DNA of 23,554 nt from an uncultured Desulfobacterium sp. (lineage in GTDB: Bacteria > Desulfobacterota > Desulfobacteria > Desulfobacterales > Desulfobacteraceae). The DNA lies in assembly GCA_937124525.1 (NCBI GenBank), contig CAKZLA010000121.1, positions 1-23,554 of the forward strand. The letters run 5' to 3'. The stretch's first letter is position 1. Each line of letters opens with the position of its first letter. Positions 2,710 through 23,455 of this stretch are shown one piece after another. The translations under genes were made by a program, and so were the position numbers. The notes under the pieces are model-generated. The model was not told where the DNA came from. It did no database searches and saw only the letters and a list, made by a program, of their open reading frames with translations.

Positions 2710-2772
2710 AAAATATTGAGCCAGACTGAAGCCCGCCTAAAGGGCGCTAATTAAAAAAACGAATGGTTGATT

Positions 2773-8700: not shown

Positions 8701-11700
8701 CTGGCCAGAGGTTATTTAAATAAGCCCGGACTCACTAAAGAAAAATTTATACCACATCCTTTTACACACAAAAATAGAATCTACAGAACCGGGGATCTCG
8801 GAAAGTGGTGGCCCGACGGAAATATCGAGTATCTGGGAAGAACGGATCATCAGGTTAAAATCAGGGGATTCCGCATAGAACCAGGGGAGATCGAAAACGC
8901 CCTGGGGAAGCATCCTCATATTCGTCAGACAGTGGTTCTTGCAAAGGAACTGGGCTCTGACGTAAAAGAATTGGTCGCGTATATTGTGAGTTCCAAAGAT
9001 ATAAGCCGTTCTGATTTAAAGGCTTATATCGGGAAGATCCTTCCTGATTATATGATTCCTGCTTATTTTGTATTTTTAGATAACTTTCCCCTGAATCCCA
9101 GCGGAAAAATCGACAGAAAGATTCTGCCTGATCCTGTTCAGAAATCTGAGATGCCCTATGCCCCACCCGTGACAGAGATGGAGAAAACCCTGGCCGATAT
9201 ATGGATGATGGTGTTAGGCCGGAAAGAGATCGGCATCCATGACAATTTCTTTGCCATCGGGGGCGACTCCATAAAAGCGATTCAAATCATCTCACGTATG
9301 CACCGCGAAAACCTGAAATTGCAAACGCGTCATCTATTTGATCATCCCACGATCTCGGAACTGTCTGAAAAGGTTTCAAAATTCGTGTCTGAAACTTCGG
9401 CCGAGCAAGAAACCGTGTTTTCCCCGGAATCCGAGCATTCGGGAGCTTTGATGGATTTGAAAAATACCTATCCCATGTCCTCACCTCAAAAACGGCTTTT
9501 TTTATTGTCGCAATTGGAAAGCGATGAAATTCAGTATCATATCAATGGTGCAATACTGATAGATGGTGATTTGGACATTGATCGTTTTGAACTATCATTT
9601 ATTGAAATAATCAAAAGACATGAAAGCCTTCGAACCGGTTTTGAGATGCAGGATGACACTCTTTTCCAGCGCGTGCATGATAATGTTGACTTTAAAATTA
9701 TTACAAAAAAAATAGATGAAAATGAAATAGAACAACTTATTGATGATTTTATCCGCGTCTTTGATCTATCCACCCCTCCTTTAATACGGACTGGCCTTGC
9801 AAGTTTAAGAAAAGATCGTCATCTTATGGTCATAGATGCTCACCATATAGCGATTGACGGCTATTCATTTAACATTATAGTCCAGGAGATCATTACATTA
9901 TATCAAGGAAAAAGTCTTTCGCCTGTTAAAAAAACATATAGTGAATATGCGATATGGGAACAGGAACACATTCAATCCGATACTGTAAAAAAACAGGAAC
10001 GATACTGGATTGACTGTTTTTCAGATGAAATTCCCGTGTTGAATCTTCCCCTTGATTATCAAAGAGGATCGCGTCAGAGTTTTCAAGGAGATGTGATTCA
10101 TCTGGAAATTGGTCAGGAACAGACCAATCAATTAAAGGGATTGGCAAATGAAACAGGAACGACATTGTTTATGATTTTGCTTTCTGCTTTTAATATATTG
10201 CTCTTTAAATTAACCGGTGAGGAAGATATCATAACCGGCATGCCCATTGACAGTAGATTTCGCAAAAATTTCGACTATACTGTGGGTATGTTTGCCAACA
10301 CTTTAGTATTGAGAAATTTTCCAGCCGGCGACAAGACATATATGGATTTTCTGAATGAGGTCAAGACACACTGTCTTGATGCTTATGAAAATCAGGATTA
10401 TCCCTTTGATGTTTTTGTGAACAAACTCGATCTAAAAAGGGATATGAGCAGAAATCCACTCTTTGATGTGATGTTTGTTTATGTAAATGCAAATGAACGA
10501 ATTTTCAAGATAAAAGATCTCTCTTTTCATGAATATACTTATAATCAGAAGTCAACTAATTTTGATTTTACCGTGGAATTCATTGAAGAAGACAATCACC
10601 TTCACCTGAACGTAAAATACTGCACAAAACTTTTCAAAAAGAAAAAGATTGAAAGGTGGTCGGACTATCTTATAAAAATAATGCATGAAATCGTATTAAA
10701 CAAGAATATGAAATTATCGGATATAGATCATCTTCCTTTGGAAGAAAAACAAAAGTTGCTTATAGATTTCAACGACACAAAAACTGCCCATACCCATGAA
10801 AAATCCGTTGTTGATATGTTTGAATATCAGGTGAAAAAAAATCCCGGCAATATTGCCGTTGTATTTAAAGATCAAAAGCTCAATTATAACACTCTTAATA
10901 TGAAAGCGAACCAACTTGCCCGACATCTGAAGGATAATTACGATATTGGAAGCGGTGATTTCGTCTGTATGATGGTGCAATTGTCGGAACATTTAATTGT
11001 GGGGATGCTGGCAATCATTAAAACCGGAGCCGCTTTTATACCAGTAGATCCAGACGCTCCGCCTGAACGCGTGGACTATATATCAAAGGATTGTAATTTT
11101 AAATTAATTATTACAGATTCCAGGACCAAGGACAAACTATTATCAGATATTCCTGTTATTCAAATAGATAAAGAAACATTTGATGAATCACCAACAAACT
11201 TGAATATTGAAATCATGCCCTCTGATGTATTATCCGTTATTTATACATCCGGTTCCACAGGCCGACCAAAGGGCGTATTAATAAATCATAAAGGAATGGT
11301 GAATCACATCACATGGTTTATTAATGATTGTAATATAAAGGAAAATGATTCTTCTATTATTCTTGCATCATACGCATTTGACGCGCCTTATACAAACATA
11401 TGGGGAATGCTGTTCACCGGTTCTTGTCTTCATATTGTTTCAGATAGAATATTGAAGGATATTGAGCAACTCATTGATTATATAGTTCACAATGACATTT
11501 GTTTTTTAAAAATGACCCCTTCTCTTTTTCATGTACTTGTGCATGCTGCCAATGCTTCAAAATTATCATCATGCAATAAACTCAGATTGATAATGCTCGG
11601 CGGAGAAGCCATAAGAACCGAAGATGTTATGGAATTTCGCAGTATCAATTCAAGAACAGAATTTATCAATCATTATGGACCCACTGAAACAACAATAGGA

Positions 11701-14043
11701 TGTATTGCAACACATATAAACAACATTGAAGATTTTCATAAACGACCGGTAATTGGAAAACCGATTGCAAACACATCGATATACATACTTGACAGATATT
11801 TAAAGCCTGTTTCTCTTGAAACAACAGGAGAAATTCATATAGGAGGACCAGGGCTGTCAAATGGGTACAAGAACAGAGACAATTTGACAAAAGAAAAGTT
11901 TATTGCAAATCCTTTTCAACCCGGCGAGTTTCTATACAAAACCGGTGATTTGGGCAGGTGGTTGTCGGATGGAATGGTTGAATGTCTGGGAAGAATTGAT
12001 AATCAGATAAAAATCAGAGGGTTCAGGATTGAACCTGAAGAGATTGAAAGTCTCATATCACAGCATGATGACATCGGTAAGGTTGCGGTCATTGCAAAAA
12101 AAATGAAGAGAACAGATAAAGAGCTGATTGCTTACATAACCTGTATAAATGATCTTGAAATATCCGATTTGAAAGCATATTTAAAGAGCTATCTTCCCAA
12201 TTATATGATTCCTGCATATTTTGTTAAGCTTGAAAACATGCCCATGACCCGGAACAACAAAATAAACAGAAAAATGCTGCCCGCTCCTTTGGATACGGAT
12301 AACAGGATCTCCGATGAGATTATCCCCCCCGCAACAAGCATGGAAATAATTTTAGTAAACATTCTGAAAGACTTGCTTGTAAAAGATAATATTGGAATCA
12401 ATCATGATTTTTTTGAACTTGGCGGAGATTCCATAACGGCCATTCAAGTTGTTTCGCGTCTCAAAAAGAAGAATTTAAATATAAAATTTCACCACATTTT
12501 TGAATATTCTAAAATTGAAGAGACTGCGAAAAAGATAACCGGTCAGGATCAAATAATTAAAGATGCCAATTTGGATTTTTATGGACAGATGAATCCTGAT
12601 GAGTTGAAAGAGCACCTTTTGATTTGTAAAATAAAGGAAGATAACATCCAGGATATTTATCCACTTTCTCCAATGCAAGAAGGCATGTTGTTTCATGCCC
12701 TTTATGACGGTGATTCAGCGGCATTTTTGCAGATTGACTCTTTTCCCGTCACGGGAAACTTTGACATCAATATTTTTGAAAAATCCTGGAATGAGCTATT
12801 TAAACGATACGATATTTTTCGAACATTATTTTTGCATAAAGGACTTGAAAACCCTTTACAAATTGTTTTAAAAGAACAAAAAATTGTATTTTCATTCAAT
12901 GATATCAGTTACTTGGATAAACGGCAACAAGATTCATTCATTGTGAAGTGTAAACAGGAAGAGGAATCCCTAAAATTTGACTTAAGCAGGGATGTCTTGA
13001 TGAGAATCAAAATAATTGCATCCGGCAAATCAAATTATGAGGTTATCTGGACAAGACATCATATTCTCATGGATGGCTGGTGTTCGGGAATTATAATAAA
13101 TGAACTTTTTACAATTTATAAAAGTTTAGAAAAAGGAGTCAATCCTGACCTGCAAACGGTTATTCCATACAGTTCTTATATATCCTGGTTAAAGACTCAA
13201 ACCGACCCCGACGCCGCAAAGCAATATTGGAAAGATTTTTTAAGCGATTACAAACAGATTGCGACATTATCCGATCCCTCTTCTTTGAGTAATCGGTCCG
13301 GAGGGTATGAAATCAAAGCTGTAAGAGATGAATTATCCGTGGAACTTACTCAAAAATTACGACAATTGGCCATTGGAAACCGTGTGACTTTAAATACGGT
13401 GGTGCAGAGTATCTGGGCCGTATTGCTTGGTAAGTATAACCATGTTGATGATGTGATATTTGGACTGGTTGTTTCAGGGCGTCCTCCCCAATTGCCTGGT
13501 GTGGAAAATATCGTGGGGCTTTTTATCAATACAGTGCCTGTAAGAATAAAAACTGAAAAAACCGAAAAATTTTCTTCCCTGATCAAGAAGGTGCAAAAAC
13601 AATTTCTTGAAAGTGAAGATTTTCATTATAATTCTTTGGCGGATTTACAGGCAACGAGTAATTTGAAGGAGACCTTGATCGATCATGCCTTTGTTTTTGA
13701 AAATTTTCCTTTCAGTGGGAAATTGCACGATATCATCGAAAAAATTCAACTTGATTTTTCAATCGGCGATGTTGATGAAGGCATCCTACAAACCAATTAT
13801 GATTATTCTTTTGCTTGCTATCCCTTGGAGAGGATTATTTTTGAAATAAAGTATAATGCCGATATTTTCAGTGATCAATTCATGGAACTGATATTGAGAC
13901 AATATGTTTGTATGGCAAAAGCTGTTGTTGAAAATGAAACTCTGTGTATAAGTGAAATAAGGACTGAAATAATCGATAATGAAAAGAATATGCGAGAAAA
14001 TGCATTCGTTGAAACATTTATGAGTATTGACGAGGAATTTTAA
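2773..14043 (+). CDS. Giant hybrid PKS-NRPS with aminotransferase
   Basis: A 3756-residue assembly-line enzyme, about 425 kDa. Domain order with approximate residues: coiled-coil docking helix 4-33, KS 34-456, ACP 518-592, linker helix, PLP aminotransferase 706-1150, C1 1176-1595, A1 1620-2121, PCP1 2130-2200, C2 2233-2655, A2 2677-3171, PCP2 3185-3255, C3 3296-3745, short tail. It should extend an acyl chain by two carbons, aminate the beta-keto group, then add a Ser-like and an Asp-like residue. The layout recalls mycosubtilin MycA and microcystin McyE. There is no AT, KR, DH, epimerase or thioesterase. C3 lacks its own A domain, so the next step uses the first A-PCP of the protein starting at 16457. 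An in-frame TTG lies at 2767; ATG 2773 is chosen although no strong ribosome site is visible. The open frame is intact, arguing against a decayed gene. Confidence 0.9.
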   Translation: MDTNKEKKYLSTIKQASNKIKELIAENNTLKEQSPIAVIGMSCRFPGADNPEDFWQMLLKGEDAIRTIPEDRFKVEKYFDPVSRKPGTMYTNKGGFLDDPGAFDPHCFGMSLDEARWLDPQQRLLMEVSWEALERAGQDFSKIKGSNTGIFLGMCNQDYYLSHIGGDTGNLNEFTATGSGFSTGSGRLAYIYDFRGPAITIDTACSSSLVALNMAAQNIENNLCDMALVGGVSLMLRPEPFVAFSAIQALSPDGKCRTFDASANGYGRGEGCGVVVLKRLSSAISDKDPILAVIKGTALNQDGTSSSLTAPNAISQQNVINKAHIHAGVNIDDVDYIELHGTGTSLGDPIEARALGMVFNKRKNLEKVIVGSVKTNIGHLEAASGIAGFIKTILALQHRQIPSSLNFKEPSPHIPWDELPIQVADRVIPWPEKQGDCIAGISSFGYSGTNAHIVICNAPECDNQKTYGTYAFQRQSFPIHPPVVGTDAKISNSINSSNRKDAEIQDIEKKEVSKERQNITIENILIPLLDELLPVRISSDNRHLPLISIGANSIIFTRLQRKIESSFGVSIPLRNLFDDISTIDALISYIEKNQKSIEPSTQTTQSIQTRRSTESTPPVKENYSIEENFVELTNNDTPPSINSIFQQQLKTISETMSEVVSKQLEFLKTSNLSTDKERPEQESDLSQIKPLNHSLVINNSSESVTLKQGEFLSGLIARYIKRTKTSKELAERYRPILSDWINTLNFRMSIKEIQYPIVSNRSAGAYLWDVDQNKYIDMAMGYGVNFLGNNPSFISDAIESQLKKGSHLGPQSDLTGEVAELICEISGMDRVTFCNSGTEAVMFALRIARAVTGRDKIVIFSGSFHGTFDGVLAAEGENGVIPQAPGIPQSMIKEVLVLDYDSEKSLEIIRKKGNELAAVLTEPVQSRKPGVQPASFLKKLRTITKKTGTALIFDEMITGFRIGLGGAQEFYGIRADIATYGKILAGGMPIGVFAGASEFLDAIDGGQWSYGDDSSPGVKTTLFGGTFCKHPLTMAACKASLNFMKEQGPALQENVNKRTEYFAKTLNTFFEEHKCPVRIHYFSSLFRFESFGRYDLSLFPIEMDILFYLLMEKGVYTWERRICFFSISHTDDDIEFIINAVKESILELRKGGFHFSLDDESEPETAPISLEIEETYPMSSSQKRLFVLSQLESDEIKYQIKGAVLIEGDLDIDRFKLSFMEIVKRHESLRTGFEMQDDKFIQRVHDNVDFKIITKKIDESESEQFIDFFSRPFDLSSPPLIRIGLAIFSKNRHLMVMDAHHIAIDGSSFNIIVQEFITLYEGKKLAPVQNRYREYVAWEHNHIVSDAVKKQEQYWIDSFSDEIPVLNLPLDYQRGSRQSFKGDVIYLKIDQLQTNQLMELAKETRATLFMVLLSAFKILLSKLTSQEDILTGIPIDSRSRGDFDQTVGMFANTLVIRSFPVGSKRYKDFLNEVKEKCLNAYENQDYPFDLFVDKLALQRDMSRNPLFDAQFVFEDGNRRIFKIEELTFTTCDANKKSSMFDLTLEVTEARGHLDISLEYCTKLFKKETIQRWSCYFQNILGEIIKKPDIFISDMEILPSAERRRLIDEFNNTEADYPCTETLVSMFEARAAKNPDNLALIFKNKRLSYKKLNESANQLAHILREEHGVSGDDPVGIMVERSEMMIIGIFGILKAGGAYVPIHPEYPQERVKYILENSCCKIILTESKFLDGLRGDSQAAVLDIGEMKGDKKSNLEQNISAGNLAYIIYTSGSTGHPKGVMIEHGSVINRIHWMHRKYPITPEQDIILQKTPFTFDVSVWELFWWSFYGLPLCLLEPGGEKDPGIIVRTIRENHVTVIHFVPPMLNAFLEYLEHGSQASQIKCLRHVFASGEALSCVLVEKFNRLLGRRYNIQLHNLYGPTEATVDVTYFDCPPNFDLPVVPIGKPVDNTQIYLMDRDMKHPSPTGVVGEICIGGALLARGYLNKPGLTKEKFIPHPFTHKNRIYRTGDLGKWWPDGNIEYLGRTDHQVKIRGFRIEPGEIENALGKHPHIRQTVVLAKELGSDVKELVAYIVSSKDISRSDLKAYIGKILPDYMIPAYFVFLDNFPLNPSGKIDRKILPDPVQKSEMPYAPPVTEMEKTLADIWMMVLGRKEIGIHDNFFAIGGDSIKAIQIISRMHRENLKLQTRHLFDHPTISELSEKVSKFVSETSAEQETVFSPESEHSGALMDLKNTYPMSSPQKRLFLLSQLESDEIQYHINGAILIDGDLDIDRFELSFIEIIKRHESLRTGFEMQDDTLFQRVHDNVDFKIITKKIDENEIEQLIDDFIRVFDLSTPPLIRTGLASLRKDRHLMVIDAHHIAIDGYSFNIIVQEIITLYQGKSLSPVKKTYSEYAIWEQEHIQSDTVKKQERYWIDCFSDEIPVLNLPLDYQRGSRQSFQGDVIHLEIGQEQTNQLKGLANETGTTLFMILLSAFNILLFKLTGEEDIITGMPIDSRFRKNFDYTVGMFANTLVLRNFPAGDKTYMDFLNEVKTHCLDAYENQDYPFDVFVNKLDLKRDMSRNPLFDVMFVYVNANERIFKIKDLSFHEYTYNQKSTNFDFTVEFIEEDNHLHLNVKYCTKLFKKKKIERWSDYLIKIMHEIVLNKNMKLSDIDHLPLEEKQKLLIDFNDTKTAHTHEKSVVDMFEYQVKKNPGNIAVVFKDQKLNYNTLNMKANQLARHLKDNYDIGSGDFVCMMVQLSEHLIVGMLAIIKTGAAFIPVDPDAPPERVDYISKDCNFKLIITDSRTKDKLLSDIPVIQIDKETFDESPTNLNIEIMPSDVLSVIYTSGSTGRPKGVLINHKGMVNHITWFINDCNIKENDSSIILASYAFDAPYTNIWGMLFTGSCLHIVSDRILKDIEQLIDYIVHNDICFLKMTPSLFHVLVHAANASKLSSCNKLRLIMLGGEAIRTEDVMEFRSINSRTEFINHYGPTETTIGCIATHINNIEDFHKRPVIGKPIANTSIYILDRYLKPVSLETTGEIHIGGPGLSNGYKNRDNLTKEKFIANPFQPGEFLYKTGDLGRWLSDGMVECLGRIDNQIKIRGFRIEPEEIESLISQHDDIGKVAVIAKKMKRTDKELIAYITCINDLEISDLKAYLKSYLPNYMIPAYFVKLENMPMTRNNKINRKMLPAPLDTDNRISDEIIPPATSMEIILVNILKDLLVKDNIGINHDFFELGGDSITAIQVVSRLKKKNLNIKFHHIFEYSKIEETAKKITGQDQIIKDANLDFYGQMNPDELKEHLLICKIKEDNIQDIYPLSPMQEGMLFHALYDGDSAAFLQIDSFPVTGNFDINIFEKSWNELFKRYDIFRTLFLHKGLENPLQIVLKEQKIVFSFNDISYLDKRQQDSFIVKCKQEEESLKFDLSRDVLMRIKIIASGKSNYEVIWTRHHILMDGWCSGIIINELFTIYKSLEKGVNPDLQTVIPYSSYISWLKTQTDPDAAKQYWKDFLSDYKQIATLSDPSSLSNRSGGYEIKAVRDELSVELTQKLRQLAIGNRVTLNTVVQSIWAVLLGKYNHVDDVIFGLVVSGRPPQLPGVENIVGLFINTVPVRIKTEKTEKFSSLIKKVQKQFLESEDFHYNSLADLQATSNLKETLIDHAFVFENFPFSGKLHDIIEKIQLDFSIGDVDEGILQTNYDYSFACYPLERIIFEIKYNADIFSDQFMELILRQYVCMAKAVVENETLCISEIRTEIIDNEKNMRENAFVETFMSIDEEF
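2872..4140 (+). other. KS domain (residues 34-456), AT-less
   Basis: This ketosynthase performs the decarboxylative Claisen step. The full catalytic set is visible: Cys205 in DTACSSS, His340 in LHGTGTS and His379 in KTNIGHLEA. It is preceded by a charged amphipathic helix (KYLSTIKQASNKIKELIAEN) typical of PKS docking or dimerisation. No acyltransferase follows; instead a YAFQRQ motif (470-475), like the post-AT linker of cis-AT modules, appears about 14 residues after the KS end. Malonyl loading must therefore come from a separate acyltransferase, as FenF/ItuD do for mycosubtilin and iturin. Confidence 0.9.
4321..4551 (+). other. ACP domain with Ser553
   Basis: A carrier domain fold with SIGANSI, where Ser553 (codon 4429-4431) would carry phosphopantetheine. 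The motif is a variant of the usual LGxDSL, with Asn in place of Asp before the serine. It sits directly between KS and aminotransferase, so the beta-keto intermediate on it is the expected amination substrate. Confidence 0.8.
4570..4623 (+). repeat. Three imperfect 18-bp tandem repeats in the ACP-aminotransferase linker
   Basis: Units at 4570-4587, 4588-4605 and 4606-4623 each begin with TCC and encode STQTTQ, SIQTRR and STESTP. The first two share TCCAYCCAAACCA. This is a flexible Thr/Ser/Gln-rich linker that probably grew by slippage; a helix (QQQLKTISETMSEVVSKQLE) follows before the aminotransferase. Confidence 0.7.
4888..6225 (+). other. PLP aminotransferase domain (residues 706-1150)
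   Basis: A class III (glutamate-1-semialdehyde type) aminotransferase domain embedded in the synthase. Lys982 in ATYGKILAGG is the expected PLP Schiff-base lysine and Asp954 in IFDEMITGFR should hold the pyridine nitrogen; CNSGTEA and SFHGTFDG are the phosphate and ring-binding motifs. In MycA and McyE the equivalent domain converts an ACP-bound beta-keto thioester to a beta-amino thioester, and the position after KS-ACP without reductive domains fits the same job here. Confidence 0.88.
6298..9378 (+). other. NRPS module C1-A1-PCP1, serine-like specificity
   Basis: C1 carries HHIAIDG (His1301, Asp1305). A1 has YTSGSTGHPKG, NLYGPTEA, YRTGDL and SGKIDRK. Reading the eight variable specificity-pocket positions from the motifs FDVSVW, VIHFVPP, VFASGEA and NLYGPTEATVD gives D-V-W-H-F-S-L-V-D, the serine code I recall for EntF. 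PCP1 carries Ser2166 in IGGDSIKA. C1 would join the beta-amino acyl chain to serine. Confidence 0.82.
9469..12540 (+). other. NRPS module C2-A2-PCP2, aspartate-like specificity
   Basis: C2 is a near copy of C1 with HHIAIDG (His2358, Asp2362). The pocket of A2, read from FDAPYT, FLKMTP, IMLGGEA and NHYGPTETTIG, is D-A-T-K-M-G-H-I-G, matching seven of nine positions of the surfactin aspartate code D-L-T-K-V-G-H-I-G as I recall it. The A10 motif is NNKINRK rather than NGKIDRK but keeps the lysine. PCP2 carries Ser3220 in LGGDSITA. The residue is probably Asp or a close relative; Asn is less likely because of His where Asn codes have Glu. Confidence 0.72.
12655..14040 (+). other. C-terminal condensation domain C3 and short tail
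   Basis: This domain opens with YPLSPMQEGMLFH and has RHHILMDGWC (His3430, Asp3434), so it is a condensation domain, not an epimerase. This opening is common in C domains that follow D-configured donors, which would suit a D-Asp on PCP2, but that is weak evidence. The protein ends shortly after it with the tail FVETFMSIDEEF, so the acceptor must be PCP3 on the second NRPS. Confidence 0.82.
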
Positions 14044-14179: not shown

Positions 14180-15085
14180 ATGCTTTATAAAAATTTTATG
14201 AAAATGGTTGGAAACACACCGGTTGTGGGTTTTCAATCAGACCTTGGCCTTCCGGTGGAATTATATATAAAATTAGAGGGTTTCAATCCCACAGGAAGTG
14301 TCAAAGACAGGGCCTCGTTAGCGCTCATCAACCATAAAATTGAAACAAAAGAACTTGTTCCCGGGAAAACCATTTTAGATGCTTCAAGCGGTAGTTTTGC
14401 CTGCTCTGTTGCATTTTTTGGAAAAATCAACAATTACCCGGTTACCGTGGTAACCGGAAATAAAATGACGAATGATAAAGTTGCATTTATCGAATACTTT
14501 GGCGCTGAAAGAATATCCCATGGAAGTTTCACCATTGAAGGCAATCGTTATTGCTCTGAAACATTATTCGCAAGGGATCCTGAAAAATATTGTTTTCTTG
14601 ATCAGCTTCATAATTGGAAAAATCCTGAAATTCATTACAAAACAACAGGTCCTGAAATCCTTTCAGATATTCCTGACATAAGCGCAGTGGCTTTTTCTCT
14701 TGGTTCAGGAGGAACCTTAAATGGCGTGTCCAAGTATATCAAAGAGAAGAGACCTGATATAAAAATAATTGCCACGACGTCAGCATCAGGTACTAAAATT
14801 CCGGGAACCGGAGCCTTTGTAGATGGTGATTATGTCACACCGTTTATTGCCGAGAGCAAGAAAAATAACCATTTTGATTACACGGCTGTTGTCAATCAGG
14901 ATCAGGCAGTTAAACGAGTCAAGGAGTTGCGAAAATATGGTTTTTATGTAGGTATTCAAACCGGAGCTGTTTATCAGGGAATGATTGATGGAGTCAGGGA
15001 GTTGAACATCCAAGGAAAAGTCTTGATTATTTCAGGTGATGCAGGCTGGAAAAATATGGACAAATTGATTTCTCTGGTTTATTAA
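14180..15085 (+). CDS. Cysteine-synthase-fold PLP enzyme
   Basis: A 301-residue member of the fold type II PLP family that contains CysK, CysM, SbnA and CysK2. Lys42 in PTGSVKDRAS is the PLP lysine, at the same number as in E. coli CysK. The substrate loop usually reading TSGNTG is ASSGSFACS, and the phosphate-binding loop is SLGSGGTLNG; both are divergent. The usual C-terminal PDSGERYLS is replaced by SGDAGWKNMD. Family enzymes exchange the beta-substituent of an activated serine for sulfide, an amine or another nucleophile, so it may make a beta-substituted alanine for one of the A domains; it is unlikely to be the housekeeping cysteine synthase. ATG 14180 has ATGGG nine bases upstream. It follows the first synthase by 136 bases in the same direction. 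Confidence 0.8.
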   Translation: MLYKNFMKMVGNTPVVGFQSDLGLPVELYIKLEGFNPTGSVKDRASLALINHKIETKELVPGKTILDASSGSFACSVAFFGKINNYPVTVVTGNKMTNDKVAFIEYFGAERISHGSFTIEGNRYCSETLFARDPEKYCFLDQLHNWKNPEIHYKTTGPEILSDIPDISAVAFSLGSGGTLNGVSKYIKEKRPDIKIIATTSASGTKIPGTGAFVDGDYVTPFIAESKKNNHFDYTAVVNQDQAVKRVKELRKYGFYVGIQTGAVYQGMIDGVRELNIQGKVLIISGDAGWKNMDKLISLVY

Positions 15086-15180: not shown

Positions 15181-16350
15181 ATGAGTGAACCAAAATATTG
15201 TATGTCATGTTCAATACAAAAAGGGCATCCCAGTGTAATTTTTGATGAAAATGGCGTCTGTAATATATGTGCTGGACATGTTTCTGACGATATTGTGACA
15301 AAGTATACTGATATTTCAGCTAATTATGATGATTTCATTAATTCTCAAAAAAATATGCACGGAAAGTACGACTGTCTGTTAATGTTGAGCGGTGGAAAAG
15401 ACAGTTTGTACATATTGCATAAACTAAAGGATGAAACCTCGAAAAATGTACTTGCATTTACATTCCAAAGCATCTATCTGAGTATTTCTTCCAAAGCTAA
15501 CCTAAATAAATGCAAGCAATATCTCAGTGATATGGATTTCATGCCCTTTTATTCAGATCAGAAGTATATAAGTTTAATGTCGGATATATTTTCACGTGAA
15601 TATTCCCGGGATGAGATATCAAAGGCTGAAATAGCTGAAAAACTTCCATGTGAAATCTGTACATTATTTATGATTATAAATGCCTGTTTAACCGCTATCA
15701 AGCAAAAAATTCCTTATGTCCTTCATGGAGCAGATCCATTGCAAATGGTCGGATTGGGAGTTGACCTTAAAAAGATAATGAAAAGATTCAACAAAATAGT
15801 TGGTGAAAAAATGGCCAGGGATGTTTTGGGTAATCAACATAAGATAATTCTTGATACGGATGACGATGATCTCCCTAAATTAGTATATCCTCTTGTATCC
15901 TTATTTAATGAATATAACAAAGAAAAACTGATAGAATACCTCAACAAGACGACTCAATATGAATCAAACAAGATAAGAACCTCATGTAAACTCGATTCGT
16001 TTTTGCAATATTTTTCTTTCAAGAATTTCAATTGCTATGCAGGAGCGTTAACGGTGGCCGCCTCGGTCAGAGACAATGCAATAACAAGAGATTTTGTAAT
16101 TCAGGCGGAAAAAGATTACAAAAAAATAATTCTGGAAATAGCAGTCAAAAAAGAGATCAGCGAAGAAGAGAAAAAGTATATCAAAGATGTTGCGGATCAA
16201 TTGACTGAATCTGAAGGCGAATCAGATATCCTGTATAATAATTTTTTATCATTTCGGTCTCTGGCCGAAGAAATCGGCGTTTTTGAAAAGTCCGATGCAA
16301 CGGATGAGGATTTTTTGAAATCAACAATGGAGATTGATGAAAACTTTTAG
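15181..16350 (+). CDS. PP-loop ATP pyrophosphatase with CxxC zinc-type motifs
   Basis: A 389-residue enzyme of the N-type ATP pyrophosphatase (adenine nucleotide alpha hydrolase) superfamily. SGGKDS at 70-75 is the PP-loop that adenylates a carbonyl or carbonyl-like oxygen with release of pyrophosphate. The N-terminus has C7xxC10 and C27xxC30 in FDENGVCNIC, the knuckle seen in WbpG-type N-acetyl sugar amidotransferases. C157xxC160 (PCEIC) and C269 add a second set of cysteines, which in sulfur-transferring relatives bind metal or carry sulfur. Relatives make amidines, thioamides (CtaC of closthioamide) or thionucleosides, so nitrogen or sulfur insertion into the peptide or a building block is a reasonable inference. 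Its C-terminus FLKSTMEIDENF resembles that of the first synthase. AAGGG about ten bases before ATG 15181 supports the start. Confidence 0.8.
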   Translation: MSEPKYCMSCSIQKGHPSVIFDENGVCNICAGHVSDDIVTKYTDISANYDDFINSQKNMHGKYDCLLMLSGGKDSLYILHKLKDETSKNVLAFTFQSIYLSISSKANLNKCKQYLSDMDFMPFYSDQKYISLMSDIFSREYSRDEISKAEIAEKLPCEICTLFMIINACLTAIKQKIPYVLHGADPLQMVGLGVDLKKIMKRFNKIVGEKMARDVLGNQHKIILDTDDDDLPKLVYPLVSLFNEYNKEKLIEYLNKTTQYESNKIRTSCKLDSFLQYFSFKNFNCYAGALTVAASVRDNAITRDFVIQAEKDYKKIILEIAVKKEISEEEKKYIKDVADQLTESEGESDILYNNFLSFRSLAEEIGVFEKSDATDEDFLKSTMEIDENF

Positions 16351-16448: not shown

Positions 16449-16456
16449 TAATGTTG

Positions 16457-19400
16457 ATGAATAAGAAAATCCTTCACACGGTATTTCAGGAAACTGCAAA
16501 ACGCTTCCCAGACAACGTGGCAGTCCAGCATGAGAGTTGCAGTATTTCTTACAAATCATTGAATGGTGAAAGCAACAGAATATCGAGATATTTAAATGAT
16601 CTGGGAGTAAGAAAAGATGTTGTTGTAGGAATTATTCTGGAGAGCGGTATTGAATATATTGCGTCTATCTTAGCGGTAATGAAATCCGGAGGTGTGTTTC
16701 TTCCTTTGGATATTTCATTTCCTGAAAAACGACTGAAATATATTTTAGATAAAACCACTCCTGATGTTTTGATTATCGGCAAAAAAAATCAAGACACTAT
16801 TATTACCAAACTTGATCAAGTTGGAATTGATCAAAATAAATGTCCAATGATCTTTGTCGATGAAAATCTGAAATTATACCCTGAAAAAAAACAATATTCA
16901 GATATAGATCCTGGGATCATTCCTGATCCGGATGACAGCAATTACATCATATATACTTCAGGATCAACAGGCGCGCCAAAAGCCATTGTCGGCCAACATA
17001 AAAGCCTTTCCCATTTTATGCATTGGGAAACAAAGGAATTTAGGCTCGATGAATCCGTCAAATCAACTCAACTTACACCCATAACCTTTGATGCAAGTCT
17101 CAGAGATATATTTGTTCCTCTTCTTGTGGGGGGAACCGTGTGTATTCCCCCAGAAAATGTATTGACAAATATTGTTCATTTAATCGAATGGATCGATACC
17201 GCCGGAGTAACTCTCATTCATACAGTGCCGTCTCTTTTCAGAATGATAACTCAGCATCTTGAATCAGGACAAAAAGATATATATTTCAAGTCTTTAAAGT
17301 TTGTTATGTTGGCTGGAGAGGCTTTGTATGGAAAGGATGTGATACGATGGAAGGATCTGGTGGGCGACAGAATAGAACTTGTCAATTTATATGGAGCCTC
17401 GGAAACGACACTCATCAAATCTTTCAACAGAAAAATTGTCAGACCTTCAAGATCCAATGTCATGATTCCGGTGGGCGAACCCATATCAAATACGGCGATC
17501 CTGATATTAAAAGAAAACAGGCTTTGTGATATCGGAGAAACCGGGGAGATATTTATAAAAACTCCATTCAGAACAAAAGGGTATTACAACGAACCTGAAA
17601 TGACTAAAAAGTTCTTTGTTCAAAATCCATTAAATAAAGAGATCGAAGATATCATCTATAAAACAGGAGATCTCGGGAGGTATTTTCCGGATAGAAGCAT
17701 TGAATTCAAAGGCAGGGCAGATACCCAGGTAAAAGTGAATGGAATACGCATCGAACTTGCCGAGATTGAAAAAGCACTGATGAATAATGAAACAATAGAC
17801 CAGGCTGTCGTACTTGCATTCAAGAACAATGACAATGAAAATTCATTGGTCTGTTATTACACTGAAAAATTGGAAACCGACGTCGAGGATATCAGACTTA
17901 ATTTAAGTCTGGAGCTCCCTGTTTACATGTTGCCTGTATATTACTTGAAAATGGATGAATTTCCTCTGAACGTCAATGGCAAAATAGATAGAAAAGCACT
18001 TCCCAAACATGATGAAATGATCAAAAATTCGAAAGAATATGAACCTCCTGCAAGTGATATGGAAAAAGCGCTGGCGACGATTTGGGAAGAAGTTCTTGAA
18101 ATTGAAAAAGTGAGTGTCACAAGTTCCTTTTTTGAAATTGGCGGTCACTCTTTAAAAGCGACGAGGGTCGTATCAAGAATTTATAAAGAACTTAAGATAG
18201 AAATCAGTTTGAAAGAATTTTTCAAACATTCCACCATCAGAAAATTAGCGCCAATTGTCAGCCGCTCAGAAACAAGTTCATTTCTGCAGATTCAGCCTGT
18301 AAAGGAAAAGCCATACTATGATTTATCTCATGCCCAGCGCCGTTTGTGGATAATGGACCAAATGGATGATGGAGGAGGTATTGCTTATAGTCTTCCCGCA
18401 GTCTATTCAATTGATGGTCATCTCAATGTTTCAGTTTTTTACAATGCTTTTGAAGCATTGATCCAACGACATGAATCCCTGCGCACCACTTTTTTATTGG
18501 TGGATGGGGAACCAAAACAAAAAATTCATGAAAATAAAAAATTTTCATTCAAAGAGATTGACCTTTCCCAAGATAAAGACAGTTCGGACGTTTCAAAAGA
18601 AAATTTTGTAATTGAATACGCGGCAAAGGATGCAAAACTGCCCTTTGATTTATCCAAGGGCCCATTGCTGAGAATGCAATTACTAAAACTATCCAATGAG
18701 CGATTCATCGTTTTGTTCAATATGCATCACATTGTCAGCGATGCCTGGTCCATGGATGTGCTTGCAAAAGAAGTGCTGACTCTTTATGATGCGTTTATAA
18801 AAAACGAAACAAATCCTCTTCTTCCCCTTAGAATACAGTACAAGGATTATGCCGCATGGCAAAATAATCTGTTAAACTCGGATAAGATCAGAAAAAATCA
18901 AACCTATTGGCACGGCAAACTTTCGGGGGACCTCCCTGTTTTAAATTTACCCCTTGACTATCCCAGGCCACCTGTTCAGACGTTCAACGGAAATACCATT
19001 TCTTTTGAATTTGATGAATCTTTGACAAAGGGGCTGATCGAGCTGTCCAATGTGAATGATGTCACCATCTTTATGACCGTTCATGCATTGCTCAAGGTTC
19101 TTTTATATCGTTATACGGGGCAGGAAGATATCATCATAGGTGCTCCTGTGGCGGGCAGAGAGCATTTTGATCTTGATAACCAGATAGGGTTTTACGTCAA
19201 CCTACTTGCCCTTCGCGATGAAGTCAAAGGGGATGATGCTTTCAAGGAGATATTGAGAAAAGTAAAAGAAACGACAACAGAAGCATATGAGCACCAGGTT
19301 TATCCATTTGACAGCCTTGTCAATGAAATCGATACAAAAAAAGATATCAGCCGACCACCGATATTTAACGTTGCGATGACTTTTTATGACAATCCTCAAG

Positions 19401-22400
19401 TCGATTATGAAACCGGCGATATAAAGATTTCTCCATTTAGAACTGAATTGAATGTCAGTAAATATGATTTCATAATGACATTTACGCTAAAACAAGGGCG
19501 ATTTGGATTCAATGTGAATTACAACTCTGATCTGTTTAAATCAGATACGATCATAAGGTTGGGAAACCATTTTAAAGAATTATCCGTCAATGTGGTCAAA
19601 GATGCCGACTGTTCAATTAAACACCTGAATATTTTAGACAAGGTCGAAAGAAAAAAAATCTTCTCAGAATTTAACGACACATTTTATAACCACCCAAAAG
19701 ATAAAACCATTGTCGACCTGTTTCATGACAACGTAAAATCATTTCCCGATCATACAGCGGTCATATTTGAGGATAAACAACTTACTTATCAACAATTGGA
19801 TCAAAAGTCGGATCTACTGGCAAATTATTTGAAAAAAGCCGGTGTTCAACATGAAGAGATAGTTGGTTTGATGATTGACAGAAGCGAAATCCTGGTGATT
19901 TCATTTTTGGGAATATTAAAATCAGGCGCTGTTTATCTACCTGTTGATCCTGAATATCCACTGGACAGAGTCGCCCATATCCTCGATGACAGCAAATGCA
20001 ATATTATCTTGACCGAAGAAAAACACATTTCAAAGGTCAATGATTTTAAATTGCAAATCCGGGAATTATCTCGAATTTTTTCAGAAAATCATGATTTTTC
20101 AGACATAATAAACAATAGTGGTGTGATTACACCGCAAAGTCCGGCGTATCTGATATATACTTCAGGTTCCACGGGAAAGCCAAAAGGGAGCATGAATATC
20201 CATCAAGGCCCGGTCAACATGTCTCTTGATCAAATAAGGTCTTTTGGAATATCAGAATCCGACCGGGTATTGCAATTTGCATCCTGTTCATTTGATGCAT
20301 CTGTTTATGAAATGTGTATGGGGCTGTTTGCGGGGGCCGCAGTGGCGATTGTAAGTAAAGAAAGGATTAATGAGCCACAAAACTTCACCAAGTATCTGCA
20401 AGATAAAAACATAACGGTTGCAACGCTTCCCCCGGTTTATCTGAATACATTGGACAGAGAAAAACTTTTCACATTGAAAACCATAATTACGGCAGGAGAG
20501 CCCGCCATTCTAAATGACGCCGTATATTACAGCAAGCATAAGCAATATGTCAACGCCTACGGGCCATCGGAAGCATCGGTATGTATCTCCTTTCACATGG
20601 TCGATCCGAAACGAGAATATAAAACCGGCATTCCTATTGGAAAACCGATATCAAACACCTGTATATATATCCTGGACGACTTTTTACAACCTGTTCCCAT
20701 CGGTGTCCCCGGTGAAATTGCCGTTTCCGGATTTGGTCTGGGAAGGGGGTATCTGAACAGAGACGATCTGACACGGGAAAAATTTATTCAACATCCTTTT
20801 AAGCCCGATGAAAAGTTATATATGACAGGCGATATCGGAAGGTGGCTTTGTGACGGCAATATTGAATTTTCAGGAAGAAAAGACGACCAGGTTAAAATCA
20901 GGGGATACCGCATTGAATTGGGTGAGATTGAAAACTGCCTGCTTGGGTACGCCGGCGTAAACGAGGTTGTTGTGGTTATTTTAAATGATCTCGATGAATT
21001 AGTTGCTTATGTCGTAAGTGACAATGAATTGAATCTTACCAAGTTAAGATCGCATTTAATCCAGTTTCTTCCCGATTACATGATACCCGCATACTTTGTC
21101 CGGATTGAGTCAATTCCTCTTACATCCAACGGGAAAATTGATAAAAAAGCCTTGCCTGATCCTGAAACGAATTATCTGAAAACCGAGACCAAATATGAGG
21201 TGCCGCGTAATAACTTTGAAACAAAACTTATCCGAATATGGGAAGACGTTCTTGGAAAAAGAGATATAGGAATTAAGGACAACTTTTTCGATCTTGGTGG
21301 AAATTCACTCCATTCGGTTAAAATCGCTTCCAGAGCGACAACAGAGCTTAATTGTCCGTTATCAGTGAAACACATATTTTTGAATCCCACGGTGGCCGGA
21401 ATATCAAAGGCCATGAAACAAAAATCATTGAAATCAGAACTTGTCAGCCGGATTTCTGTTACCGATATCCCTTTAAATGGATCAAAACATTTATTAATTG
21501 AAAGACGTCCTTTGATTACACTTATGGCCATGGAAGAGATACCCCCTGTAAAATCAGCTGCAATAGGGTATCTTCATGATGATTTGATTTCCGATGCAGG
21601 TATAACACGCGATGAAGTCATTGATCATTGGTGCAATAACGCCCCGGTAATCAGCACAATATATCAAACTGTTCTGGGACGTATTGCTTTTATAACTATT
21701 CCGAAATTTTCTTCTGAATTGTACAGCAATAAAGTTGAACTGATAAACGCCATTCAGGACTCACTGAAAATAGCCGGTCATTTCGGCGCCGAAACACTTT
21801 CTCTTACGGGCATTATTCCCTCGGCAACGGATTACGCCCGCAAAATCATAGCCGATGATTCTTATAATAAGGATGAACTACCTGCCGTATCAACCGGTCA
21901 CGCCACGACAACAGCCACTGTAATTATGTCCATTGAAAATATACTGCAACAGGCCAATCGATCCCTTGAACGTGAAACTGTGGGATTTCTCGGTCTTGGA
22001 TCGGTGGGAACGGCAACGCTATACCTGATGCTGAAATGTTTACCGCATCCTGAAAAGCTTATTCTCAGCGATCTTTACACAAAAAATAGTTTGTTGAAAA
22101 GCATCAAACAGGATATTATAGAAAACATCGGATTTAATGGAACCATCCACATAATAGAATCCTCTCAAAATGTTCCAGATGAATTCTATGAAGCGACACT
22201 GATTATCGGGGCGACAAATGTACCTGATATATTGGATATTTCTAAAATAAATTCTGGTACAATGATTGTTGATGATTCCGGTCCGCACTGTTTTAAATCC
22301 GACGATGCAGTTTTACGTCTTAAAGAGGAGAAAGACATTCTGTTTACCGAGGGAGGGGTTTTGAACATGCCGCAACCTTATAGCTGCACGATACATATTC

Positions 22401-22678
22401 CATATCTTGTTGAAAAATCATTAAATGCGGTACAAAAAGATTATATGTTGAAATTCAACCCTTCAATGATAACTGGCTGTATTCTCTCAGGATTATTATC
22501 TTCTCTATATGAGGATTTAAAACCGACAATTGGGAATGTCGATATTGATGTCAGCTATAAAAATTATCAAAAGTTGAATCAGTCGGGATTTACAGCCGCA
22601 GGTTTACATTGTGAAGATTATTTCATACCTGATGAATATATATCTCATTTTCGTGATAACTTTGGTATTAAATCATAA
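16457..22678 (+). CDS. NRPS with terminal AAR-like reductase domain
   Basis: A 2073-residue assembly-line protein. Approximate domains: A3 7-518, PCP3 528-601, C4 619-1060, A4 1082-1570, PCP4 1580-1655, AAR-like reductase 1660-2073. It starts directly with an A domain, so its first residue is condensed by C3 at the end of the upstream synthase. It should add two residues, the second phenylalanine-like, and then release the chain reductively. There is no thioesterase and no SDR-type (TycA-like) thioester reductase. Carrier serines are Ser565 (IGGHSLKA) and Ser1617 (LGGNSLHS). An in-frame ATG at 16451 lies too close to AAGGG (16444-16448); ATG 16457 has an eight-base spacing and is preferred. 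The gene ends 15 bases before the racemase gene. Confidence 0.88.
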   Translation: MNKKILHTVFQETAKRFPDNVAVQHESCSISYKSLNGESNRISRYLNDLGVRKDVVVGIILESGIEYIASILAVMKSGGVFLPLDISFPEKRLKYILDKTTPDVLIIGKKNQDTIITKLDQVGIDQNKCPMIFVDENLKLYPEKKQYSDIDPGIIPDPDDSNYIIYTSGSTGAPKAIVGQHKSLSHFMHWETKEFRLDESVKSTQLTPITFDASLRDIFVPLLVGGTVCIPPENVLTNIVHLIEWIDTAGVTLIHTVPSLFRMITQHLESGQKDIYFKSLKFVMLAGEALYGKDVIRWKDLVGDRIELVNLYGASETTLIKSFNRKIVRPSRSNVMIPVGEPISNTAILILKENRLCDIGETGEIFIKTPFRTKGYYNEPEMTKKFFVQNPLNKEIEDIIYKTGDLGRYFPDRSIEFKGRADTQVKVNGIRIELAEIEKALMNNETIDQAVVLAFKNNDNENSLVCYYTEKLETDVEDIRLNLSLELPVYMLPVYYLKMDEFPLNVNGKIDRKALPKHDEMIKNSKEYEPPASDMEKALATIWEEVLEIEKVSVTSSFFEIGGHSLKATRVVSRIYKELKIEISLKEFFKHSTIRKLAPIVSRSETSSFLQIQPVKEKPYYDLSHAQRRLWIMDQMDDGGGIAYSLPAVYSIDGHLNVSVFYNAFEALIQRHESLRTTFLLVDGEPKQKIHENKKFSFKEIDLSQDKDSSDVSKENFVIEYAAKDAKLPFDLSKGPLLRMQLLKLSNERFIVLFNMHHIVSDAWSMDVLAKEVLTLYDAFIKNETNPLLPLRIQYKDYAAWQNNLLNSDKIRKNQTYWHGKLSGDLPVLNLPLDYPRPPVQTFNGNTISFEFDESLTKGLIELSNVNDVTIFMTVHALLKVLLYRYTGQEDIIIGAPVAGREHFDLDNQIGFYVNLLALRDEVKGDDAFKEILRKVKETTTEAYEHQVYPFDSLVNEIDTKKDISRPPIFNVAMTFYDNPQVDYETGDIKISPFRTELNVSKYDFIMTFTLKQGRFGFNVNYNSDLFKSDTIIRLGNHFKELSVNVVKDADCSIKHLNILDKVERKKIFSEFNDTFYNHPKDKTIVDLFHDNVKSFPDHTAVIFEDKQLTYQQLDQKSDLLANYLKKAGVQHEEIVGLMIDRSEILVISFLGILKSGAVYLPVDPEYPLDRVAHILDDSKCNIILTEEKHISKVNDFKLQIRELSRIFSENHDFSDIINNSGVITPQSPAYLIYTSGSTGKPKGSMNIHQGPVNMSLDQIRSFGISESDRVLQFASCSFDASVYEMCMGLFAGAAVAIVSKERINEPQNFTKYLQDKNITVATLPPVYLNTLDREKLFTLKTIITAGEPAILNDAVYYSKHKQYVNAYGPSEASVCISFHMVDPKREYKTGIPIGKPISNTCIYILDDFLQPVPIGVPGEIAVSGFGLGRGYLNRDDLTREKFIQHPFKPDEKLYMTGDIGRWLCDGNIEFSGRKDDQVKIRGYRIELGEIENCLLGYAGVNEVVVVILNDLDELVAYVVSDNELNLTKLRSHLIQFLPDYMIPAYFVRIESIPLTSNGKIDKKALPDPETNYLKTETKYEVPRNNFETKLIRIWEDVLGKRDIGIKDNFFDLGGNSLHSVKIASRATTELNCPLSVKHIFLNPTVAGISKAMKQKSLKSELVSRISVTDIPLNGSKHLLIERRPLITLMAMEEIPPVKSAAIGYLHDDLISDAGITRDEVIDHWCNNAPVISTIYQTVLGRIAFITIPKFSSELYSNKVELINAIQDSLKIAGHFGAETLSLTGIIPSATDYARKIIADDSYNKDELPAVSTGHATTTATVIMSIENILQQANRSLERETVGFLGLGSVGTATLYLMLKCLPHPEKLILSDLYTKNSLLKSIKQDIIENIGFNGTIHIIESSQNVPDEFYEATLIIGATNVPDILDISKINSGTMIVDDSGPHCFKSDDAVLRLKEEKDILFTEGGVLNMPQPYSCTIHIPYLVEKSLNAVQKDYMLKFNPSMITGCILSGLLSSLYEDLKPTIGNVDIDVSYKNYQKLNQSGFTAAGLHCEDYFIPDEYISHFRDNFGIKS
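16475..18260 (+). other. A3-PCP3 half-module, specificity unassigned
   Basis: A3 has YTSGSTGAPKA (alanine in place of the usual final glycine), FDASLRD (Asp212), NLYGASE instead of YGPTE, YKTGDL and NGKIDRK. The pocket reads D-A-R-H-M-A-L-L-I. The first four positions equal those I recall for the beta-methyl-aspartate A domain of microcystin McyB (D-A-R-H-V-G-I-F-V), but the rest differ, so I do not assign a substrate; a non-proteinogenic one is likely. PCP3 has Ser565. Confidence 0.75.
18312..21420 (+). other. NRPS module C4-A4-PCP4, phenylalanine-like specificity
   Basis: C4 has HHIVSDAWS (His758, Asp762) with alanine where HHxxxDG has glycine; the catalytic His and structural Asp remain. 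A4, read from FDASVY (Asp1280), VATLPP, IITAGEP and NAYGPSEASVC, gives D-A-Y-T-I-A-A-V-C, very close to the gramicidin S synthetase phenylalanine code D-A-W-T-I-A-A-I-C. An aromatic residue, most likely Phe, is predicted. PCP4 carries Ser1617. Confidence 0.78.
21430..22675 (+). other. AAR-like (acyl-ACP reductase) terminal release domain
   Basis: About 400 residues after the last carrier domain match the plan of cyanobacterial aldehyde-forming acyl-ACP reductase (compared from memory with the Synechococcus PCC 7942 enzyme). GHFGAETLSLTGIIPSAT corresponds to KHGIDISALGGFTS; STGHATTTATVI to TTGNTHTAYVI; the NAD(P)H loop is GLGSVG (1846-1851); GGVLNMP corresponds to GGVVEH; and Cys2008 in SMITGCILSGLL lines up with the AAR active-site Cys294 in QMFACFAEAMLL. 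AAR takes an ACP thioester onto this cysteine and reduces it to an aldehyde. Here the donor would be the peptide on PCP4, giving a C-terminal aldehyde. Homology is well supported; the reaction is inferred. Confidence 0.72.
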
Positions 22679-22693
22679 ATCATCGAGATTTTA

Positions 22694-23455
22694 ATGAATA
22701 AAAAAAACGACAAAATTTTAGGTGTTTTAGGTGGAATGGGACCCCTTGCATCCGCGGAGTTTTTAAAGACCATTTACGAACAGAATATTTCAGACGAGGC
22801 TGAGCAGGGATATCCCAATGTGATTTTGCATTCTATAACATCAATGCCTGACAGGACAAATGTGCTTATGAACAATTCTGACAACCGATTCTTGAACAGA
22901 TTGGTTTACCACCTGGAGCTATTATGTAAAGCGGATGTATCACATATCATTATCTGCTGCATGACGTCTCATTGTTTTTTGCACATGCTTCCCCAACTCC
23001 TTCTCGACAAGATTGTTTCCTTAATTCCTGTTGCGATCAATGAACTTGAAAGAAAGAAAGAACCGGCGCTCTTACTGGCTACGATGGGTACATATCATGA
23101 ACGACTCTTTGAAAAAGAGGCTTTATTAAATAACAGCGATAAATACCTTGTAATACCCTCGGATGAAGATAAGCAGTTTATCCATAATCTCATATATGAC
23201 AACCTGAAAAAGGGGAAAAATATTTCAGAAGTTCATCAGAAAATTCAAAGAATGCTTGATAATTATAAAATAAATTCATTTGTTTCAGGATGCACCGAGT
23301 TTCATTTACTTGTTAAATACGTCCTTGAAAGCGGCAGTGGAATCAATTTTGTCGATCCGCTGGTATCTGTCGCAAGAGAGTATTGTACTGATAGTAAATA
23401 TTCGGCCAGCACCCCATTCATTGGGGGACATATTTTAAATATGCCCTGCTCATAG
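22694..23455 (+). CDS. Asp/Glu-family amino acid racemase
   Basis: A 253-residue cofactor-independent racemase of the Asp/Glu/hydantoin racemase superfamily. GGMGPLAS near the N-terminus, the first catalytic cysteine Cys89 in ICCMTSH (usual form CNTAH) and the second, Cys200 in SGCTEFH (usual form GCTEL), are all present, so it should be active. The operon has no epimerisation domain, so this enzyme could supply a free D-amino acid, with D-Asp for A2 the simplest idea; microcystin clusters similarly carry the racemase gene mcyF. It starts 15 bases after the second NRPS stop, probably translated from the same mRNA, with only a weak CGAG ribosome site. Substrate (Asp, Glu or other) cannot be told from sequence. 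Confidence 0.83.
   Translation: MNKKNDKILGVLGGMGPLASAEFLKTIYEQNISDEAEQGYPNVILHSITSMPDRTNVLMNNSDNRFLNRLVYHLELLCKADVSHIIICCMTSHCFLHMLPQLLLDKIVSLIPVAINELERKKEPALLLATMGTYHERLFEKEALLNNSDKYLVIPSDEDKQFIHNLIYDNLKKGKNISEVHQKIQRMLDNYKINSFVSGCTEFHLLVKYVLESGSGINFVDPLVSVAREYCTDSKYSASTPFIGGHILNMPCS

Follow-up and report, generated by a model that had tools for sequence, protein, structure and literature searches.

The stretch of DNA analysed here, referred to as the window, comprises 23,554 nucleotides of contig CAKZLA010000121.1 from an uncultured Desulfobacterium sp. and carries the gene of a 2075-aa non-ribosomal peptide synthetase (NRPS), NRPS2, at 16451..22678 on the plus strand, as are the parts of NRPS2 and the four genes of its run located below. 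According to its open reading frame (ORF) and Pfam matches, NRPS2 has the order A-PCP-C-A-PCP-TAD (A, adenylation; PCP, peptidyl carrier protein; C, condensation), the last element being a domain that, judged by its sequence, belongs to the TAD family, a group of megasynthase terminating domains known in marine cyanobacteria. The first A domain (16484..17587, PF00501) is followed by a PCP (18068..18250, PF00550), a C domain (18317..19660, PF00668), and a second A domain (19721..20755, PF00501), presumably Phe/Tyr-like when read by eye. Pfam finds two PF00550 stretches in the protein; in the sequence of the last PCP, Ser1619 within DLGGNS (21305..21307) is the expected phosphopantetheine site. 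About 400 residues remain C-terminal to this PCP. The initial annotation had singled them out as an unusual domain, covalently fused behind the PCP; this observation is confirmed, and the off-loading role proposed with it is likely.

The terminal domain and its family

The domain spans residues 1679–2072 (21485..22666), as delimited by sequence and matches to structure entries. A TAD from the carmabin pathway, represented in the PDB by five entries (9e4s, 9e4u, 9e4x, 9e50, and 9e56), matches it over the whole length with 44–45% identity, in both sequence and fold. Cys2010 (22478..22480), the expected active-site residue, aligns with Cys2238 of the carmabin TAD, according to the pairwise alignment and the structure numbering, as well as with Cys294 of acyl-ACP reductase (AAR); the location of the domain behind a PCP at the megasynthase end is also TAD-like. 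When PDB sequences were compared with a profile of 14 family members, strong E-values were obtained for TAD entries only, the next being 0.0099. The domain is real but not new, as the family has already been solved as crystal structures, and a little-studied lineage adds a member to it. The earlier statement that no characterised example was known is superseded by the five carmabin entries and by HcaD and VatR of PMC10949194.

The AAR-like fold and motif order noticed initially agree with the structure entries and alignments, and the AAR fold with an aligned Cys294 is present in the window domain. This kinship holds, whereas assignment to AAR proper does not: the curated model TIGR04058 gives no match to the window domain at E <= 1 and matches 2 of the 14 members (best E 0.02). 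The NAD(P)H loop, placed initially at 1846–1851, is GLGSVG of residues 1848–1853 (21992..22009), identified by sequence and alignments, and the cysteine numbered Cys2008 is Cys2010; the earlier numbers are two lower because the count had started at the second ATG. The terminal ~400 residues gave no Pfam match at E <= 10, including PF07993 (NAD_binding_4), the mark of the short-chain dehydrogenase/reductase (SDR)-type NRPS reductase (R) domain, and PF00975, that of the NRPS thioesterase, a null result limited by the HMMER filters, which discard most weak matches; both candidates were rejected, as they had been initially. Since no Pfam model matches the window domain and the 14 members give weak matches only (best E 0.019), Pfam annotation will miss the TAD family. 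The SbnB-family dehydrogenase model matches 12 of the 14 members (best 1.5e-6), yet in the three members looked at the match lies inside residues 157–279, the Rossmann part; it was therefore read as a shared nucleotide-binding fold, and SbnB membership was rejected.

Distribution, tree, and diagnostic residues

A protein database search with residues 1662–2075 scored 7993 candidates, 325 of which reached E <= 1e-5, and the counts over 121 proteins given here refer to the best 120 of these 325 plus the query. Cys2010, Gly1853, and Cys1947 are kept in 121/121, and Asp1874 in 120/121. A PCP motif lies upstream of the TAD in 110 of the 121 proteins and in 43 of 65 locus segments, although the pattern used misses some (an NRPS of Syntrophaceae, L018, counts as a miss despite two PF00550 stretches) and partial and stand-alone segments count as misses too. 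In genome contigs, alignment A1 found 60 loci from 177 stretches, none of the 46 stretches obtained with the window protein as query was confirmed as a relative, and no TAD match was found in phage records. The segment ends at most 21 residues from the ORF end in 64 of 65 cases, partial segments ended by a stop (e.g., L024 and L025) included; the remaining one is a piece of a split gene.

According to the tree labels (Cyanobacteriota, Pseudomonadota, Planctomycetota, Chloroflexota, Bacteroidota, Bacillota, Myxococcota, Gemmatimonadota, Nitrospirota, Verrucomicrobiota, Thermodesulfobacteriota, and Fidelibacterota), the family terminates NRPS and polyketide synthase (PKS) lines in twelve or more phyla, although single labels may be wrong because many of the sources are metagenome bins. 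PKS-TAD fusions occur among the best 120 of 325 proteins in P0032, P0082, P0095, and P0111, and two more distant members are located on Streptomyces plasmids. Short NRPS proteins of ~1632–1655 aa with PilZ (PF07238) and a terminal TAD recur among cyanobacteria, namely in Microcoleus, Laspinema, Nostoc, and Dolichospermum. Stand-alone TAD genes are found on a Pantoea plasmid (L001, 14869–16158), in Robbsia (L036), and on a Streptomyces plasmid (L101, 7812–9008), that of Pantoea adjoining a ketosynthase (KS) gene, a luciferase-like monooxygenase gene, and NRPS genes. In L024, L025, L030, and L054 the TAD is interrupted by a stop or spread over several ORFs; these are possibly decayed genes or assembly errors.

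The tree comprised 84 rows: 77 TADs (the window domain, 57 locus domains of more than 300 residues, and 19 hand-chosen proteins from the best 120), five AARs, and two PigE sequences. The latter are the two matches above the cut-off in a PigE family search of 398 genomes, which gave a signal in 390 of them and in 14/14 controls, the listed matches below the cut-off being to the aminotransferase half. The 77 TADs split from the five AARs and two PigEs at a 100/98 branch, and the window domain falls in a nine-row clade (99/98) that it shares with rows from Candidatus Anammoxibacter, Brocadiaceae, and Syntrophaceae. The tree was used for these two results only, because its bootstrap values had not yet stabilised, it was rooted at the midpoint, and the branches of L101, L050, L056, L053, and L002 are long; the tool warns that the branch joining L101 to the AAR/PigE rows is a long one.

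At position 1817 a His is present in 75/77 TADs (Gln in L018 and Asn in L053 are the exceptions) versus Asn in all seven AAR/PigE sequences, and at 2013 a Ser in 72/77, the exceptions including Glu in both Streptomyces plasmid members, versus Glu in 7/7. Further TAD marks are D1874 (77/77), D1942 (75/77), S1943 (77/77), C1947 (76/77), and R1956 (77/77), several of them within the TAD-specific motif DDSGPHCF, identified in the alignments at residues 1941–1948 (22271..22294). The altered residues near the Cys and the added DDS-PHCF motif suggest that the chemistry may go beyond plain reduction. L018, whose TAD deviates at 1817 (Q), 1942 (E), and 1946 (R), has the same A-PCP-C-A-PCP-TAD order as NRPS2 and is 49.5% identical to it over residues 3–2072; its neighbours are a KS-acyltransferase (AT) gene and a methyltransferase-aminotransferase-C-A gene, the aminotransferase resembling that of the first module of the upstream window synthetase NRPS1 (48%).

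Cofactor and release chemistry

An Asp that closes the second Rossmann strand usually marks an NAD(H)-using site, and such a residue, D1874 (22070..22072), is invariant among the 77 TADs. The carmabin TAD crystal forms include NAD and NADH forms. These data point to NAD(H) as the predicted cofactor of the window domain, making NADH, not NADPH, the first candidate; because of the invariant D1874 and the NAD and NADH forms, the NADPH assay proposed initially would probably use the wrong cofactor.

The favoured reading, to which a probability of about two in three can be given, is a TAD-type release in which a peptidyl-Cys2010 would be converted to a C-terminal primary amide with NAD(H) bound; the fold, the family, the Cys, the NAD-type site, and the position behind a PCP are shown by this analysis. 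First, the finished peptide would leave Ser1619 of the last PCP and form an acyl on Cys2010, a step proposed because of the Cys-dephospho-CoA disulfide in 9e56 and the AAR/PigE precedent. Ammonia or an ammonia equivalent would then attack the acyl-Cys, yielding the amide, as the known products of TAD relatives are primary amides: PMC10949194 describes the domain that follows the PCP in HcaD and VatR as one believed to release its product through terminal amidation, and lists dragonamides, carmabin A, and vatiamides E and F as terminal amides from NRPS pathways; carmabin A with a C-terminal amide also appears in PMC6164609. As a first guess, the reaction would otherwise be redox-neutral, and the bound NAD(H) would serve as a hydride shuttle or help to shape the active site; a shuttle would account for the retention of the dinucleotide site. 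An extended proposal, which we regard as unlikely, makes TADs a new chemical type: NADH would reduce the acyl-Cys to a bound aldehyde or hemithioacetal, ammonia would add, and the NAD+ generated in the first step would reoxidise the hemiaminal to the amide with no net redox change, while the window clade may stop at the aldehyde.

Several points weigh against the amide reading. Amide formation by TADs would rest on the products of relatives, the expansion of TAD to terminal amidation domain is presumed, and PMC10949194, which suggests ammonolysis, states that enzymology and mechanism were not studied. The dinucleotide site is conserved, though plain ammonolysis needs none. Among NCBIfam models, PigE matches the window domain best (5.7e-6), and the two nearest same-fold groups with known chemistry, AAR and PigE/TamH, are aldehyde makers with the aligned Cys. 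In the tree, whose limits given above count here as well, the window clade differs from that of the Moorena TAD rows, and row P0098, standing in for the carmabin TAD, was matched by eye. Moreover, 4/121 proteins carry a thioesterase or SDR-type reductase C-terminal to the TAD: in P0059 and P0085 the reductase, and in P0063 and P0096 the thioesterase, follows directly, with no PCP between by eye. Because of this extra release-type domain, a TAD acting as the sole or constant release domain is hard to square with these four proteins, and they fit neither the amide nor the aldehyde reading well.

The reductive off-loading expected in the initial annotation, in which the peptide would pass to Cys2010, have its thioester reduced by NADH, and leave as an aldehyde, possibly changed further, is retained as a doubtful alternative because the fold, the Cys, and the PigE kinship point to a reductase. 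The PigE model matches 14/14 family members (best 1.6e-12). PtTamH, with an AAR-like reductase domain and a putative catalytic Cys, converted carrier-bound C12 to product when supplied with NADH but not with NADPH, and C12 aldehyde was among the compounds detected (PMC9594044). For PigE, thioester reduction is reported, and its Cys296 corresponds to Cys294 of AAR (PMC8341465). TADs differ from AAR and PigE, however, at H1817 and S2013 (Asn and Glu in the latter) and in the added DDS-PHCF motif, are separate from them in the tree, and are linked to amide products (PMC10949194); none of the window genes searched was recognised as coding for an enzyme that uses an aldehyde, the aminotransferase belonging to the first module. 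The off-loading role remains likely, but the aldehyde product becomes doubtful, as the domain clusters with relatives whose known products are primary amides and not with AAR/PigE.

Ammonolysis has no NAD requirement and P0063 and P0096 have a thioesterase behind the TAD, so the dinucleotide site might be a relic or structural, with release by hydrolysis or by passing the peptide to a different nucleophile (an amino acid or an amine); the loop residues and D1874, invariant or nearly so, and the crystal forms with NAD and NADH make this improbable. Amino acid dehydrogenases depend on a catalytic Lys. That the domain makes its own ammonia in their manner, oxidising an amino acid with NAD+ and handing the ammonia to the acyl-Cys, is very improbable, as the best Lys column reaches 55/77 TADs; such chemistry was rejected in the absence of a conserved Lys. 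The expected product is shifted from a peptide aldehyde to a probable peptide amide, and what NAD(H) would do in amide formation is a clear and testable question within the chemistry that makes the whole family interesting.

Gene context and comparison with known systems

NRPS1 (2767..14043), with the Pfam order KS-ACP-aminotransferase-C-A-PCP-C-A-PCP-C (ACP, acyl carrier protein), is the upstream partner of NRPS2; it ends with a C domain, and NRPS2 begins with an A domain. Between them lie genes for a pyridoxal-phosphate (PLP) enzyme of the cysteine synthase/SbnA kind (14180..15085, Pfam and NCBIfam matches) and a WbuX-like protein of the N-acetyl sugar amidotransferase family (15181..16350; 75.8 bits against a curated cut-off of 203.2, E 4.1e-21); NRPS2 is followed by an Asp/Glu racemase-family gene (22694..23455, Pfam and family matches). 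These five genes probably form one operon, as their gaps are short (15–136 bases) and all lie on one strand. A NuoE/NuoF-like pair carrying Fe-S domains (148–2508) directly precedes NRPS1 and probably belongs to unrelated primary metabolism.

The first module of NRPS1 (2767–6117) is KS-ACP-aminotransferase, in which Pfam found no AT domain, an arrangement that suggests a beta-amino acyl start. The A-domain codes, read by eye and not recovered by a pattern script, are presumably Ser-like, Asp-like, unassigned, and Phe/Tyr-like. With this module and four A domains, the cluster would yield a beta-amino-acyl tetrapeptide amide, if the amide reading holds. The SbnA/cysteine-synthase-like PLP enzyme and the racemase (aspartate/cysteate kind), sharing the gene run with the NRPS genes, may supply an unusual amino acid for the Asp-like A domain of NRPS1. 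WbuX-type enzymes put nitrogen onto acetamido groups, so an amide-to-amidine step on the cluster product is conceivable. The neighbourhood does not decide the product, because window neighbours rarely recur: within flanks of at most 10–15 kb (some contigs being short), none of the 62 other TAD loci contained the PLP, WbuX-like, racemase, or NuoF protein, the aminotransferase domain was present in 1/62, and KS in 9/62.

No published TAD enzymology was found in the literature searched, which covers few subscription papers and no preprints, so that such a study may exist. Among known systems, the carmabin TAD, like the window domain, sits within an NRPS ("Amino acid adenylation domain protein") and has the same Cys; it is Moorena-like (by eye, from P0098), in contrast to the window clade of anammox and Syntrophaceae rows. 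HcaD (hectoramide B) and VatR (vatiamides) likewise have the domain directly behind the last PCP, and their products, unlike that of the window cluster, are known C-terminal amides. P0108 of Moorena producens JHB, a member of the same family, is presumably HcaD: its PCP motif at 1487 and its terminal domain at 1545 lie close to the PCP (1477–1543) and domain start (1544) given in PMC10949194, but P0108 ends at 1958 and the table of that paper gives 1977, so that the identity is kept tentative. PigE and TamH resemble the window domain in profile kinship (PigE hhalign 98.6), the aligned Cys, and, for TamH, NADH use, but differ in their aminotransferase fusion; the two PigE sequences, unlike TADs, have Glu at 2013, Asn at 1817, and no DDS-PHCF motif. 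AAR (6jzq, 6jzu, 6jzy, and 6jzz) shares the fold, Cys294, and the motif order with the window domain, but it is a stand-alone protein of ~340 aa that uses NADPH (title of 6jzy) and is 16% identical.

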